Below are positions 12,236 to 16,586 of a stretch of 64,000 nt of DNA, piece by piece. Source of the DNA: Tessaracoccus lapidicaptus. Lineage in GTDB: Bacteria > Actinomycetota > Actinomycetes > Propionibacteriales > Propionibacteriaceae. The position numbers and the translations under genes were made by a program. How positions within the stretch are numbered: the first letter of the stretch is position 1; each line of letters opens with the position of its first letter. Under the pieces are notes generated by a model. It was not told the DNA's origin and searched no databases. It worked only from the letters and a program-made list of their open reading frames with translations. Where the stretch lies: positions 124,001 to 188,000 of the forward strand of contig NZ_MBQD01000020.1 of the NCBI RefSeq assembly GCF_001693815.1, read 5' to 3'.

Positions 12236-12964
12236 ATGTGTGGACGCTATGCGGCGACGGCGAATCCTGACGAGCTGATCGAGGAGTTCGACATCAGCGT
12301 CATCGAGGACGACATGGCCGCCGTGGCCTCGCCGCGCTACAACATCGCCCCCACCGACGACGTCCCCGCGGTGCTGGAGCGGCTCACCGACGGGGCCCCG
12401 GTCCGCAAGCTGGTCCCCCTGCGCTGGGGCCTGGTCCCGAGCTGGTCCAAGGCGCCGGGGTCGGGGATGATCAACGCCCGCGTGGAGACGGTGGCGGAGA
12501 AGCCCGCCTACCGCCGGGCGGCGGCGGCACGACGGTGCCTGCTGCCCGCGCTGGGCTACTACGAGTGGCGGTCGGAGACCCCGCCCGGCGCGCCGAAGCC
12601 GGTCAAGCAGCCCTACTTCCTCCGGCGCCCGGCCGGGCTGTTCGTCATGGCCGGGCTGTACGAGTTCTGGCGTGGTCCGGAGGGCTGGCTCGCCTCGACG
12701 ACCATCGTCACGACGGAGGCGACCGACGAGCTGGGCTGGGTGCACGACCGCATGCCGATGACGGTCCCCCGCGAGAGCTGGGGGGACTGGTTGGACCCGT
12801 CGTTCACCGATGCCGCGGCCGCCGTCGCGCTGCTCGAGGTGCCCGCCGACCTCGCCCCGGTCAAGGTGTCGCGCGCGGTCAACACGGTCGGCACCGACGG
12901 GCCCCAGCTCATCGAGCCGGTGGATGAGGAGCCGGAAGAAATTCCTGTACCCCCGGGGGAATAG
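12236..12964 (+). CDS. SRAP-domain protein (HMCES/YedK family)
   Basis: 242 residues. The family forms a covalent DNA-protein crosslink with abasic sites in single-stranded DNA and shields them. All four active-site residues are visible: Cys2 exposed after Met removal (MCGRY), Asn36 (YNIAPT), Glu110 (YYEW) and His170 (WVHDRMP). RWGLVPSW and [17 protein letters not shown] are also typical. The ATG must be the true start because Cys2 is catalytic. Its 3' end carries the -35 element of the sigR stress promoter. Confidence 0.92.
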
Positions 12965-12983
12965 ACGCGGGCACGACGGCGTT
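12958..12983 (+). promoter_or_regulatory. SigR-type autoregulatory promoter GGAAT-N18-GTT
   Basis: GGAAT (12958-12962, within GGGGGAATAG) and GTT (12981-12983) are separated by exactly 18 bases, the consensus for Streptomyces SigR and mycobacterial SigH promoters. It lies just before an in-frame ATG at 12993, 34 codons upstream of the main sigR start. It is the only such match I found in an intergenic position. Confidence 0.75.
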
Positions 12984-13080
12984 GTCGTCGGCATGACCGT
13001 CAGCGCCCCGAGCCGCACCCCCGTGGCCTGCGCCGAGTCCACTACCGTGGCCCGGGCGGAGTCCATGGTCGAGCTGGCGC

Positions 13081-13086
13081 TATTGT
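13081..13086 (+). promoter_or_regulatory. Downstream sigR promoter -10 box TATTGT
   Basis: TATTGT fits TANNNT and ends 8 bases before the ATG at 13095. A vegetative promoter here would make an mRNA that is leaderless or nearly so and encodes the 205-residue form of SigR. Confidence 0.45.
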
Positions 13087-13094
13087 GGGCGCTG

Positions 13095-13712
13095 ATGGAC
13101 AGTCCGGATCTCGCGGCCCCCGACGCCGCCGACGTCCTCGAGGACGCCGACGCGGCGGCCTTCGAGGAGGAAGCGCTGAGCCATCTGGACCGGCTCTTCG
13201 CCGCGGCCATGCGCATGACCCGCAACGCGGCCGACGCCGAGGACATCGTCCAGGAGACCTACGCGAAGGCGTTCTCTTCCCGCCACACGTTCACGCCCGG
13301 CACCAACCTGAAGGCGTGGCTGTACCGGATCCTCACCAACACCTACATCAACGCGTACCGCAAGGCCCAGCGTTCGCCGCAGACCAGCGGCGACGAGGAG
13401 GTCAGTGACTGGCAGCTCGCTCGCGCGGCGTCGCACGACTCCGCCGGCCTGCGCAGCGCCGAAATGGAAGCGCTGGACCAGACCCCCGACGGCGCCGTCG
13501 CCGAGGCGATCGCCGCACTGCCGGAGAACTTCCGGATGGCGGTGCTGCTGAGCGACGTGGAGGGTTTCTCCTACAAGGAGATCGCCGAGATCATGGGTAC
13601 CCCCATCGGCACCGTGATGAGTCGACTGAACCGGGGCCGCGCCCAACTGCGTGACCTGCTGGCGGACTATGCCCGGGACAATGGCATCGGACGCAGGAGC
13701 GGAGGACGGTGA
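13095..13712 (+). CDS. sigR: ECF sigma factor SigR/SigH (thiol-oxidative stress)
   Basis: 205 residues from the ATG at 13095. Region 2 contains [20 protein letters not shown] and the core [21 protein letters not shown]. Region 4 contains [29 protein letters not shown] and [11 protein letters not shown]. The adjacent rsrA encodes its zinc anti-sigma factor and overlaps by one base. The frame is open upstream to an ATG at 12993, which follows a SigR-type promoter, so a 239-residue form is possible on induction. In Streptomyces such an extended form is known to be unstable. The basal start is supported by TATTGT just upstream and by the N-terminus of mycobacterial SigH. Confidence 0.92.
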
Positions 13713-13987
13713 TGGCCGATCCCGACATGTTCTCACACGAGCACGACGAAATGGACGAGTGCGTGGCGGCGCTGTCGCGCGTGCACTCCTTCCTCCACAA
13801 CGAGCTCGTCGAGCGCGACGCCGACATCATCCGGCTGCACCTGCACGCCTGTGAGCGATGTATGGAGAACTTCGAGATCGAATCGACGATCACGGAGATG
13901 ATCCAGCGCAGCCAGGAGACCGCGGCATCTGCGCCCGCCACCCTGACTGCGCGGATCCAGGCGATGCGCGTGACGACCCGCCGCTGA
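13712..13987 (+). CDS. rsrA: Zinc-containing anti-sigma factor RsrA
   Basis: 91 residues. It binds and silences SigR until oxidation releases zinc. The ZAS motif H-x3-C-x2-C is at His43, Cys47 and Cys50, and Cys17 is the fourth ligand. The spacing equals Cys11/His37/Cys41/Cys44 of Streptomyces RsrA with an offset of six, so Cys17-Cys50 is the likely redox pair. Start: ATG 13712 with GGAGGA 5 bases upstream; the in-frame GTG at 13709 is an alternative. The stop of sigR overlaps the ATG by one base. Confidence 0.93.
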   Translation: MADPDMFSHEHDEMDECVAALSRVHSFLHNELVERDADIIRLHLHACERCMENFEIESTITEMIQRSQETAASAPATLTARIQAMRVTTRR

Positions 13988-14050: not shown

Positions 14051-14125
14051 TCAGCTGTTGGGGCGCTTGCCGTGGTTGGCCTTGTTCTTGCGGCGCGCGC
14101 GACGCTTGCGTCCGGTCTTACCCAT
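14051..14125 (-). CDS. Ribosomal protein bL37, 24 residues
   Basis: The 25-codon frame reads MGKTGRKRRARR followed by KNKANHGKRPNS. The basic composition and the KANHGKRPN ending match bL37, the very small large-subunit protein first seen in mycobacterial ribosome structures. A Shine-Dalgarno sequence, GAGGAG, lies about 6 bases before the ATG. Its place beside rsrA fits the actinobacterial neighbourhood. The assignment rests on remembered family sequence; the short length is the main caution. Confidence 0.82.
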   Translation of the reverse strand: MGKTGRKRRARRKNKANHGKRPNS

Positions 14126-14222: not shown

Positions 14223-15668
14223 GTGATGCGAGACGTGGCTCAGATGACCGACGACGAGTGGCTGGACGCCTTCGTCTCCCAGTGGGCGCTCCTGGCGGAC
14301 CTCAGTTTCTCGGACCTCGTCCTCTGGAAGCCCGCCTCGCGGGAGGGCGACGTCTTCCACTGCACCGCGCAGGTCCGGCCCGTGACCGGGCCGACGGCGC
14401 TGGAGGAAGACATCATTGGCGAGACGATCGAGTTCGAGCCGGACCACCAGGTGACCGTGGCGTTCATGAGCCGGGAGATCGCCGAGACGTCGGACAACGC
14501 GCTCGGCGCGGGCATCCCCGTGGACGTGTGGGCCATCCCGGTGCTGCGCCACGACCACGTCATCGCCGTCATCGAGCGGCACACCAACCAGATGGGCATG
14601 CGGGCCACGGGCGCCCTGGAGGAGAACTTCCTGGAGGCCGCCGAGATCCTCACCCAGATGCTGATGCGCGGCGAGTTCCCGCTGGTGACGCCGTCGGACA
14701 AGGCCCTGGCGCCACGCGCCGCCGACGGCGTGCTGCGGGTCCAGCCCGACGGCGTCATCTCCTACGCCAGCCCCAACGCCGTGACGGGATTCCGGCGCCT
14801 CGGGGCGGTCGGCGACATCGAGGGCGAGCACTTCCGCGACCTCACGCGCCAGCTGCGCGCCAGCGTCGAGTCGATGGGCCAGACCGTGGAGGCGGACCTC
14901 GACGGCCGCCTGACGCTGGAGTTCGACGTCGAGGCGCGCGGCGCGTCCATGCGGTTCGTGCTGCTGCCGCTGTGGCTCGAGTACACGTCGGCGGGGATGC
15001 TCGTCCTGTGCCGCGACACCACTGACCTGCGCCGGCGCGACCGCATGCTCGTGACGAAGGACGCCACGATCCGCGAGATCCACCACCGCGTCAAGAACAA
15101 CCTGCAGACGGTGGCGGCGTTGCTGCGGATGCAGTCTCGGCGGCTGTCGTCGCCCGAGGGCAAGGAGGCGCTGCGCGACGCCATGCGCCGCGTCTCGTCC
15201 ATCGCGATGGTCCACGAGACGCTCAGCTACTCGCTGGGGGAGGCCGTGGCGTTCGACGACGTGTGCGACAAGATCCTCGACATGGTGGGCGATCTCGCCG
15301 CGTCCCACGGCACGGTCAAGGCCAGGCGCCACGGATCCTTCGGGGTGGTGCCGGCCGCGATGGCGACGTCGCTGTCGATGGTCGTGACCGAGCTGTGTCA
15401 GAACGCGATCGAGCACGGCATGGACAGTTCCTCGGGCACGGTGGAGGTGCGGCCCGAGAGGGTGGGCGATCTGCTGACGATCCGGATCGCCGACCACGGC
15501 CACGGCCTGCCCGCGGACTTCCAGCTGGGCAGGCAGAAATCGCTGGGCCTGGCGATCATCTCGACGCTGATCAAGGACCTGCACGGCAGCCTCGCCATCG
15601 AGAACCGCCCCGACGGGCCCGGCGCCGTGGCGACCATCGTCGTCCCCGTGCCGCCAGTCGTGGCGTAG
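14223..15668 (+). CDS. pdtaS: PdtaS-type sensor histidine kinase
   Basis: 481 residues. An N-terminal GAF-like domain (about 10-160), a PAS-like domain (about 165-275, DGVLRVQPDGVISYASPNAV), then a HisKA_2 dimerisation/phosphoacceptor region (TIREIHHRVKNNLQTVAALLR) and a HATPase domain (VVTELCQNAIEHG; DHGHGLPADF). The order and sequences match mycobacterial PdtaS, which signals to the RNA-binding antiterminator PdtaR; no PdtaR gene is in this window. Start is uncertain: GTG 14223 has CAAGCT 7 bases upstream, ATG 14226 follows directly, and ATG 14190 adds 11 residues. Confidence 0.88.
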   Translation: MMRDVAQMTDDEWLDAFVSQWALLADLSFSDLVLWKPASREGDVFHCTAQVRPVTGPTALEEDIIGETIEFEPDHQVTVAFMSREIAETSDNALGAGIPVDVWAIPVLRHDHVIAVIERHTNQMGMRATGALEENFLEAAEILTQMLMRGEFPLVTPSDKALAPRAADGVLRVQPDGVISYASPNAVTGFRRLGAVGDIEGEHFRDLTRQLRASVESMGQTVEADLDGRLTLEFDVEARGASMRFVLLPLWLEYTSAGMLVLCRDTTDLRRRDRMLVTKDATIREIHHRVKNNLQTVAALLRMQSRRLSSPEGKEALRDAMRRVSSIAMVHETLSYSLGEAVAFDDVCDKILDMVGDLAASHGTVKARRHGSFGVVPAAMATSLSMVVTELCQNAIEHGMDSSSGTVEVRPERVGDLLTIRIADHGHGLPADFQLGRQKSLGLAIISTLIKDLHGSLAIENRPDGPGAVATIVVPVPPVVA

Positions 15669-15676
15669 GCGGGTCG

Positions 15677-16240
15677 TCAGCGGAGCGGGACGAAGGAGAA
15701 CAGCCCCGGGGCGTGCCGCCGGGTGAGGGCGCCGTCGGTGGAGCGCTCGACGATCGTCATCTCCTGCGCGGCCGGGAGCACCATGCGGCCGCCGGGGGCG
15801 AGCTGATCCTCCAGCGCGCGAGGGACCGAGCCGCCGTCGGCCGAGACGAGGATCCGGTCGTAGGGCGCGCCGTCGGGCCAGCCCATGACATCGCGTCGGG
15901 CGAGACGGATGCGGACCCACGGCCACCGATCGCCGAGGTTGGCGCGGCCGACGGCCACCAGCGCCGGGACGATGTCGACCCCGGTCACGGACCCGGTGGG
16001 CCCCACCAGCTCCCCGAGCAGCGCGCTGGTCCATCCCGATCCGCTGCCGACGTCGAGCACGCGGTCACCCGGGTGGGGGTCCAGGAGGCGCAGCATGAGC
16101 AGCACCGTCGAGGGCTGCGAGTTGGTGGCGCCGTGGCCGATCGGCAACGGCGCGTCGATGTGAGCGTTGTGGCGCTGCTGCGCGGTGAGGAAGTCTGCTC
16201 GGGGGGCCGTGGCGAACGCCTCGGTGAACCGGTCGTCCAT
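15677..16240 (-). CDS. Protein-L-isoaspartate O-methyltransferase-like protein
   Basis: 187 residues. The SAM-binding core is visible: PHPGDRVLDVGSGSGWTSALLGEL, SVTGVDIVPALVAVG and the substrate-side NSQPSTVLLML and APLPIGHGATNSQPS, a PCMT hallmark. It should methylate isoaspartyl residues to start protein repair. It is short for PCMT (about 205-215 residues) and could act on another protein. Start: ATG at 16240, with GGAGGG directly upstream; longer frames run into whiB1. It runs in the same direction as whiB1 and follows it by 38 bases. Confidence 0.78.
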   Translation of the reverse strand: MDDRFTEAFATAPRADFLTAQQRHNAHIDAPLPIGHGATNSQPSTVLLMLRLLDPHPGDRVLDVGSGSGWTSALLGELVGPTGSVTGVDIVPALVAVGRANLGDRWPWVRIRLARRDVMGWPDGAPYDRILVSADGGSVPRALEDQLAPGGRMVLPAAQEMTIVERSTDGALTRRHAPGLFSFVPLR

Positions 16241-16278
16241 ACCCTCCAGTGTGCCGCCAGGGAGCTCGCCGGCGGGGC

Positions 16279-16530
16279 TCAGGAGTTGCGCAGCCGCGAC
16301 CGCGCCGCGCGCCGCTTGATGGCTCGTCGCTCGTCCTCGCTGAGGCCGCCCCAAACGCCGTGGTCCTGACCGGCCTCGAGGGCCCAGGACAGGCACTGCT
16401 CGCGGACGACGCAACGCTGGCACACCTTTTTGGCTTCCTCGATCTGCTGGAGCGCGGGGCCGGTGTTTCCGACCGGGAAGAACAACTCCGGATCCTCGGT
16501 GAGGCAGGCGGCCTTGTGGCGCCAATCCAT
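16279..16530 (-). CDS. whiB1: WhiB1-type iron-sulfur transcription factor
   Basis: 83 residues. Four cluster cysteines are at 9, 37, 40 and 46 (KAACLTED; CQRCVVREQC), followed by the GVWGG turn and a basic C-terminus (RRAIKRRAARSR) for DNA contact. MDWRHKAAC and DPELFFPVGNTGPALQQI closely match mycobacterial WhiB1, an essential nitric-oxide-sensitive regulator that binds the housekeeping sigma factor. Start: ATG with AAGGAG 7 bases upstream. The adjacent pdtaS and sigR-rsrA repeat the mycobacterial arrangement. Confidence 0.95.
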   Translation of the reverse strand: MDWRHKAACLTEDPELFFPVGNTGPALQQIEEAKKVCQRCVVREQCLSWALEAGQDHGVWGGLSEDERRAIKRRAARSRLRNS

Positions 16531-16586
16531 GGTTGAGCTCCTTCTGGTCGGAGAATGTTTCGTGGCTGAAGCAAGCAAGCTCATGC

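Follow-up and report, generated by a model that had tools for sequence, protein, structure and literature searches.

Organization of the sigR locus

The window, that is the whole 64 kb stretch of Tessaracoccus DNA that was analyzed, contains a SRAP gene followed by sigR, which encodes an ECF sigma factor, and by a gene for an RsrA-like anti-sigma factor. The features of this region, all on the forward strand, are listed below.

12236..12964, +, SRAP gene (PF02586 SRAP, E 1.8e-64), whose last codon and stop overlap the -35 of p2
12958..12983, +, p2, putative autoregulatory SigR-type promoter upstream of sigR, recognized by its motif GGAAT-N18-GTT
12993..12995, +, ATG1, start of the long isoform SigR', predicted to be leaderless, at a distance of 12 nt from the G of GTT
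12993..13094, +, 34-codon N-terminal extension of SigR', frame open to the ATG at 13095
13078..13086, +, p1, CGC-TATTGT, an extended -10-like box of the housekeeping type that lies among the codons of the extension, TAnnnT at -14
13095..13097, +, ATG2, start of short SigR, with a predicted leader of 0-3 nt and depleted of Shine-Dalgarno (SD) sequences
13095..13712, +, sigR, ECF sigma factor, short form of 205 aa (NCBIfam TIGR02947 SigH_actino; Pfam Sigma70_r2 and r4_2)
13712..13987, +, rsrA-like gene for a zinc anti-sigma factor, whose start overlaps the sigR stop (TGATG), with GGAGG upstream

SigR scores 314.5 bits against TIGR02947 SigH_actino, above the curated cutoff of 251.55. The rsrA-like product matches the RsrA model TIGR03988 antisig_RsrA (E 7.6e-13) with 48.4 bits, below the curated cutoff of 62.5, and zf-HC2 with 20.9 against a cutoff of 22.2; an HxxxCxxC motif and an upstream Cys can be read in its sequence. 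Facing rsrA behind a G+C-rich inverted repeat there is an ORF on the minus strand (14051-14125) of 24 very basic residues, which has no match in Pfam and presumably resembles AURKAIP1/COX24-like small proteins. A PdtaS-type kinase and a WhiB gene (other strand), at 14226-16535, adjoin sigR-rsrA downstream, neighbors that we take to resemble those of the M. tuberculosis sigH region.

The geometry given in a preliminary description of this DNA is largely borne out by the window sequence. GGAAT (12958-12962) and GTT (12981-12983) are separated, as claimed, by exactly 18 bases (12963-12980), TATTGT (13081-13086) lies 8 bases before the ATG at 13095, and 34 open codons extend from the ATG at 12993 to the one at 13095, which are the 34 residues that the upstream promoter was said to add. 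The position of the first ATG was right as well; the gap between GTT and this ATG had been given as 10 bases and is in fact 9. Other start-like codons occur in frame within the extension, namely GTG at 13023 and 13047, ATG at 13065 and TTG at 13083.

GGAAT-N18-GTT is found once in the window against 0.29 expected, and at least once in 26 of 100 shuffles; the corresponding figures for CGSTANNNT-N8-ATG are one against 0.17, and 16 of 100. Either motif within the window alone is weak evidence, and we therefore relied on comparison. Genome-wide, GGAAT-N18-GTT occurs 16 times, against 5 for the reversed pattern, and CGSTANNNT-N8-ATG occurs 5 times, which is hardly above the genome background since the reversed pattern occurs twice.

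Loci compared and counting rules

The comparison covers 204 sigR loci at the level of the order: 37 from the genus Tessaracoccus, 94 + 10 from the rest of the family and 33 + 30 from the rest of the order. A match was present in 37 of 39 genomes of the genus, and in 104 of the 105 genomes searched in the rest of the family, all 104 of which were included; from the order outside the family, 63 of 81 genomes were used. The other-class sample, 59 of the 175 other-class genomes with a match, is uneven and was chosen by match score. The first set consists of 164 loci; the 40 added later enter only the counts of p2, p1 boxes, starts and stops, and are excluded from those of p1 distance and profile, codons, extensions, SD sequences, SRAP, spacers, degrons and other-class loci. 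Six duplicate loci were removed. Loci were anchored from the search coordinates in the case of 24 short loci left unplaced by tblastn, of the misplaced locus L108 and of the 40 added ones. L339, in which frame and anchor disagree, was counted as a miss, and so was L019, a locus of the genus with a frameshift in sigR, from a genome that is 60% complete; this frameshift, located inside sigR and downstream of both starts, is probably an assembly fault, and on direct reading the elements of L019 conform.

The putative upstream SigR-type promoter

The pattern GGAA[TC]-N17-19-GTT is found upstream of sigR in 191 of the 204 loci (157 of the 164 first loci and 34 of the 40 added), and, when read backwards, in 2 of 204. 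Among the 157 loci the spacer measures 18 nt in 104, 19 nt in 35 and 17 nt in 18. Two of the 204 loci have more than one p2 position; when a locus gave several matches, we chose the match that has an in-frame start.

As defined here, p2 is missing in 13 of the 204 loci: one of the genus (L013, genome G009), which carries TAnnnT 13 nt before its ATG, six family loci of the first set and six of the added ones. L061 was scored as missing with a near-match that ends in CTT, and L084, cut by a contig end, was scored as lacking p2. Three loci of the family genus g13 (L139, L140 and L142) are without p2, and in the family genus g25 the motif is absent in 7 of 12 loci (L141, L327-L330, L332 and L334), two of which are also without the p1 box; a natural loss of sigR autoregulation is possible in g25.

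The -35 of p2 overlaps the last codon and the stop (TAG, 12962-12964) of the SRAP gene. From this overlap, which is real in the window, the preliminary description had drawn a link between a DNA-repair gene and the stress switch. As a general feature this link is not supported, and the overlap is mostly a local one: SRAP has the same direction in 61 long loci, and in 17 of these its stop lies inside the -35 (GGAATAG or GGAATAA); 42 further long loci have no SRAP match. SRAP was rejected as a functional partner on these counts. The A that usually follows GGAAT in the family may be due in part to the SRAP stop embedded in the -35.

Elsewhere in this genome there are 15 other GGAAT-N18-GTT sites. 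Five proteins encoded downstream of them were scanned, and revealed thioredoxin, Clp_N, LON_substr_bdg and HTH domains, one protein being without a match. The sites L233, L234 and L235 precede genes for a LON substrate-binding domain, thioredoxin and Clp_N, in keeping with a SigR regulon; several sites among the 15, those with no evident gene downstream, may be chance matches. The idea that leaderless spacing is general for the SigR promoters of this genome was rejected, because GGAAT lies 69 nt before the start of the thioredoxin gene and 75 nt before that of the Clp_N gene.

The predicted start of SigR' and its extension

Transcripts made with ECF sigma factors begin at about +12 from the G of GTT, that is about where ATG1 lies. 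In 168 of the 191 loci with p2, a start in the sigR frame follows the G of GTT at a distance of 11-13 nt, and among the ATG and GTG codons at this distance 168 share the frame of sigR and 3 are in another frame. The distance keeps to 11-13 nt although the length of the spacer varies, which couples the position of the start codon to that of the transcription start. At one locus of the genus, L008, the start predicted for p2 is a GTG.

Stops or frameshifts in relatives, which the preliminary description had proposed as a check of the long frame, were looked for with a search that ignored stops in choosing the starts: none of the 168 upstream starts is separated from sigR by an in-frame stop; when these stretches are read in the two remaining frames, a stop turns up in 270 of 336 cases. 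The count of 145 leaderless extensions used below had required an open frame beforehand, and the stop test was repeated on the 168 starts free of this condition. Of the 23 loci with p2 and no start at 11-13 nt, 21 have an SD-led ATG, GTG or TTG in frame further down (11 in the first set and 10 among the added loci), a kind of start that is found in 2 of the 145 leaderless loci; the last two are L019 and L339. An upstream in-frame start with an N-terminal extension is thus present in 168 leaderless and 21 SD-led cases of the 191. These proportions (21 of 23 against 2 of 145) suggest that the long form is kept by either mode of translation, and the maintenance of the long frame under two modes is the strongest argument here for the production of SigR'.

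The 145 leaderless extensions are 15-57 codons long, with a median of 25. Their pN/pS is about 0.71, a value pooled over 32 ungapped pairs that, being non-independent, make it only a sign of weak constraint. The extension would therefore be under weak purifying selection only, and its sequence is poorly conserved. Because it varies in both sequence and length no conserved degron is evident, and the candidate degron motif [LIVM][DE]RP is found within the first 14 residues of 0 of 35 extensions in the genus, 4 of 88 in the family, 7 of 33 in the order and 2 of 38 in the other-class loci. Among 156 extensions, 53% have a hydrophobic residue at position 5 and 30% a Pro at position 8, the corresponding values at more internal positions being 17% and 12%; this trend could be a loose N-terminal signal, far from a motif. 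The retention of the long isoform while its sequence drifts constrains how such a tail could act.

A predicted promoter box inside the extension

The element that would serve as a SigR-independent promoter for the short form is TAnnnT, whose TA lies exactly 14 nt before an in-frame ATG or GTG in 199 of the 204 loci (162 of the 164 in the first set). At other distances, the same search of the 164 loci gave between 0 and 11 matches, except for 47 at distance 11, which we think arise because a GTG codon sits just before ATG2. The p1 box is absent in L013, L019, L328, L330 and L339. It is kept where p2 is absent, in all six such family loci of the first set and in four of the six added ones.

The aligned profile of p1 in 162 loci reads sCGS-TANNST, with YG before the ATG. 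Judged by eye, this profile contains neither a conserved -35 nor an AT-rich block of the WblC/WhiB7 type, so that we can only infer which sigma factor reads p1. The TA of the box, which was itself a search criterion, falls in the codons GTA (90 loci), CTA (69), ATA (2) and TTA (1); in the same SigR bodies GTA accounts for 13 of 661 Val codons and CTA for 29 of 1703 Leu codons. Since the TA falls mostly in codons that are rare in the same proteins, the constraint on the p1 box acts on DNA.

SD-like 4-mers precede ATG2 in 4 of 162 loci, compared with 151 of 756 internal ATG/GTG codons and 71 of 102 rsrA starts, and there is none upstream of 13095 in the window sequence. P. acnes is a member of the Propionibacteriaceae. 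Its vegetative -10 boxes have the form TAnnnT, with their centre about 9 nt from the start site. Leaderless mRNAs are frequent in this species: the portion of the study available to us reports 50 annotated start codons that overlap start sites and 88 more within 10 nt (PMC3848588). On the basis of this spacing, the leader of the p1 mRNA may measure 0-3 nt before ATG2.

A proposed pairing of two promoters with two isoforms

Chance is excluded because both elements, with their exact distances to in-frame starts, are conserved at sigR in the 204 loci. The comparison thus supports what had been proposed for this DNA, namely two promoters, the upstream one of the SigR type, and two in-frame starts (p2 in 191 of 204 loci, p1 in 199 of 204, start in 168 of 191). 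The proposal that both mRNAs are leaderless or nearly so is consistent with the spacing between promoter and start, read from sequence, at both starts (168 of 191 and 199 of 204). In our view, sigR very probably gives rise to two isoforms, in most cases both from leaderless mRNAs. The conservation of this layout in most of the relatives examined points to a real and old regulatory switch; the arrangement is real and general in the order, with an anatomy that is probably right and dynamics that are plausible.

The explanation that we find best, and in which we have high confidence, is that two promoters each fix one isoform of SigR, including a probable burst of short-lived SigR'. The housekeeping-type promoter p1, lying inside the extension codons, would start its transcript within about 3 nt of ATG2, and leaderless translation of this mRNA would give short SigR, held in check by RsrA. 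Under thiol-oxidative stress RsrA would release SigR, which would transcribe its own operon from p2; the p2 transcript would begin at ATG1, and its leaderless translation would give SigR', longer by 34 residues. This mRNA should yield mainly SigR' because ATG2 has no SD sequence, and if p2 mRNA gives mainly SigR' and p1 mRNA SigR alone, the choice of promoter is the choice of isoform. By analogy with Streptomyces, SigR' is probably short-lived, which would make the burst self-limiting.

The poor conservation of the extension (pN/pS about 0.71) is what would be seen if ATG1 were unused, the p2 transcript giving short SigR from ATG2 alone and the extension being an untranslated leader. We hold this to be very improbable: 168 of 191 loci have an in-frame start where transcription is predicted to begin, with no stop blocking any of these starts, 21 of the 23 remaining loci have an SD-led in-frame start instead, and a leadered ATG2 would be in a poor position to initiate translation because no SD-like 4-mer precedes it in 158 of 162 loci. 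The location of the p1 box within the sequence read from ATG1 could suggest that CGSTANNNT is no promoter, being a protein-level motif of an extension whose long form alone exists. There is hardly any likelihood in this either, since the TA sits in rare Val, Leu or Ile codons with a third-base A (the weight of the argument resting on its presence in 162 of 164 loci), ATG2 lies at a fixed distance from the box, and the box persists without p2, in six of six family loci of the first set and four of six added ones.

A switch between two isoforms in which SigR' is stable, differing from SigR in activity or in binding of RsrA and producing no pulse, is a more serious alternative, and still an unlikely one. 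The extension has no conserved degron-like sequence that we could find and varies from 15 to 57 codons in length, as this alternative would allow. Against it, the extension of 55-58 residues in Streptomyces makes SigR' a short-lived Clp substrate, according to the parts of the reports at hand (PMC4921905, PMC5472188), and the hydrophobic position 5 (53% of 156) and the Pro at position 8 (30%) leave room for a loose N-terminal signal. The instability of SigR' and the pulse in the response would be expected by analogy, as a part of the two-promoter explanation that we prefer.

If this explanation is true, the two-promoter circuit of Streptomyces would become a testable design throughout the order, in which promoter choice equals protein isoform. 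It would suggest a clear use for leaderless mRNA, and it predicts that many sigR genes in these bacteria carry two true start codons.

Comparison with known systems

The two-isoform circuit is already known from Streptomyces, and what differs here from its published form is the double-leaderless wiring. In S. coelicolor, SigR' is produced from the SigR-dependent p2 and is short-lived, and SigR is produced from p1 (PMC5472188, PMC4921905, as far as the accessible text goes). The likeness to Tessaracoccus lies in an ECF sigma factor with RsrA (in Tessaracoccus an RsrA-like protein) downstream, a downstream promoter for short SigR, and a SigR-dependent upstream promoter that leads to an extended SigR' from an upstream in-frame ATG (PMC5472188, PMC4921905), the promoters and isoforms of Tessaracoccus being predicted ones. 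The extension is of 55-58 residues in S. coelicolor, by the portions of the sources available, and of 34 in Tessaracoccus. Moreover, the short SigR of S. coelicolor is described in the same portions as starting at a GTC behind a AGGAGGTG ribosome site and as repressed by IF3, and its p1 as responsive to WblC, whereas in Tessaracoccus both starts are on predicted transcript ends, ATG2 has no SD sequence and no AT-rich block of the WblC type is seen. A Streptomyces-type SD-led GTC start for the short form was not found, ATG2 being free of SD-like 4-mers in 158 of 162 loci. A description of the double-leaderless sigR arrangement was not found in the literature searched, some of it available in part; Kim 2009 and Kim 2012, which lie outside that literature, may describe extensions elsewhere.

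SigH/RshA of M. tuberculosis is similar in having two promoters, the upstream one recognizable by SigH (PMC4921905), with the consensus GGAAYR-N17-18-GTT for SigH promoters (PMC4803200). It differs in that leaderlessness is stated, in the portions of these sources at hand, for sigEp1 and not for the sigH mRNA. SigH/RshA of C. glutamicum is likewise a related sigma/anti-sigma operon with several promoters; four sigH starts have been mapped there, however, at distances of 22, 89, 93 and 131 nt before the start codon, and their promoters look SigA-dependent in the part of the study available (PMC3489674).

Beyond the order the pattern is mixed. The 59 other-class loci include 29 with the p1 box, 13 with a leaderless p2 start and 7 with both; 25 of the 59 have SD-led starts by a loose SD rule, some of which (e.g. 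L195) are doubtful. In family f7, which we guess to be mycobacteria, the p1 box at -14 is found in 0 of 6 loci (L203-L208). One scenario, to which we give even chances, is that leaderlessness wires the switch in Propionibacteriales and in part of the class, each promoter being able to make a single isoform, so that the promoter in use decides how much of the stress regulator there is and how long it lasts. In this scenario the SD sequence, GTC and IF3 of Streptomyces are a later rewiring, and lineages with a leadered p2 gained an SD sequence that preserves the long form.

Named genera were compared on 46 of the 80 named loci. In the five Streptomyces loci among them p2 is located far upstream and a p1 box at -14 is missing, and the p1 box, together with p2 and an in-frame start 32-39 nt after GGAA[TC], is present in 5 of 5 loci of Cellulomonas and in 7 of 7 of Nocardioides.
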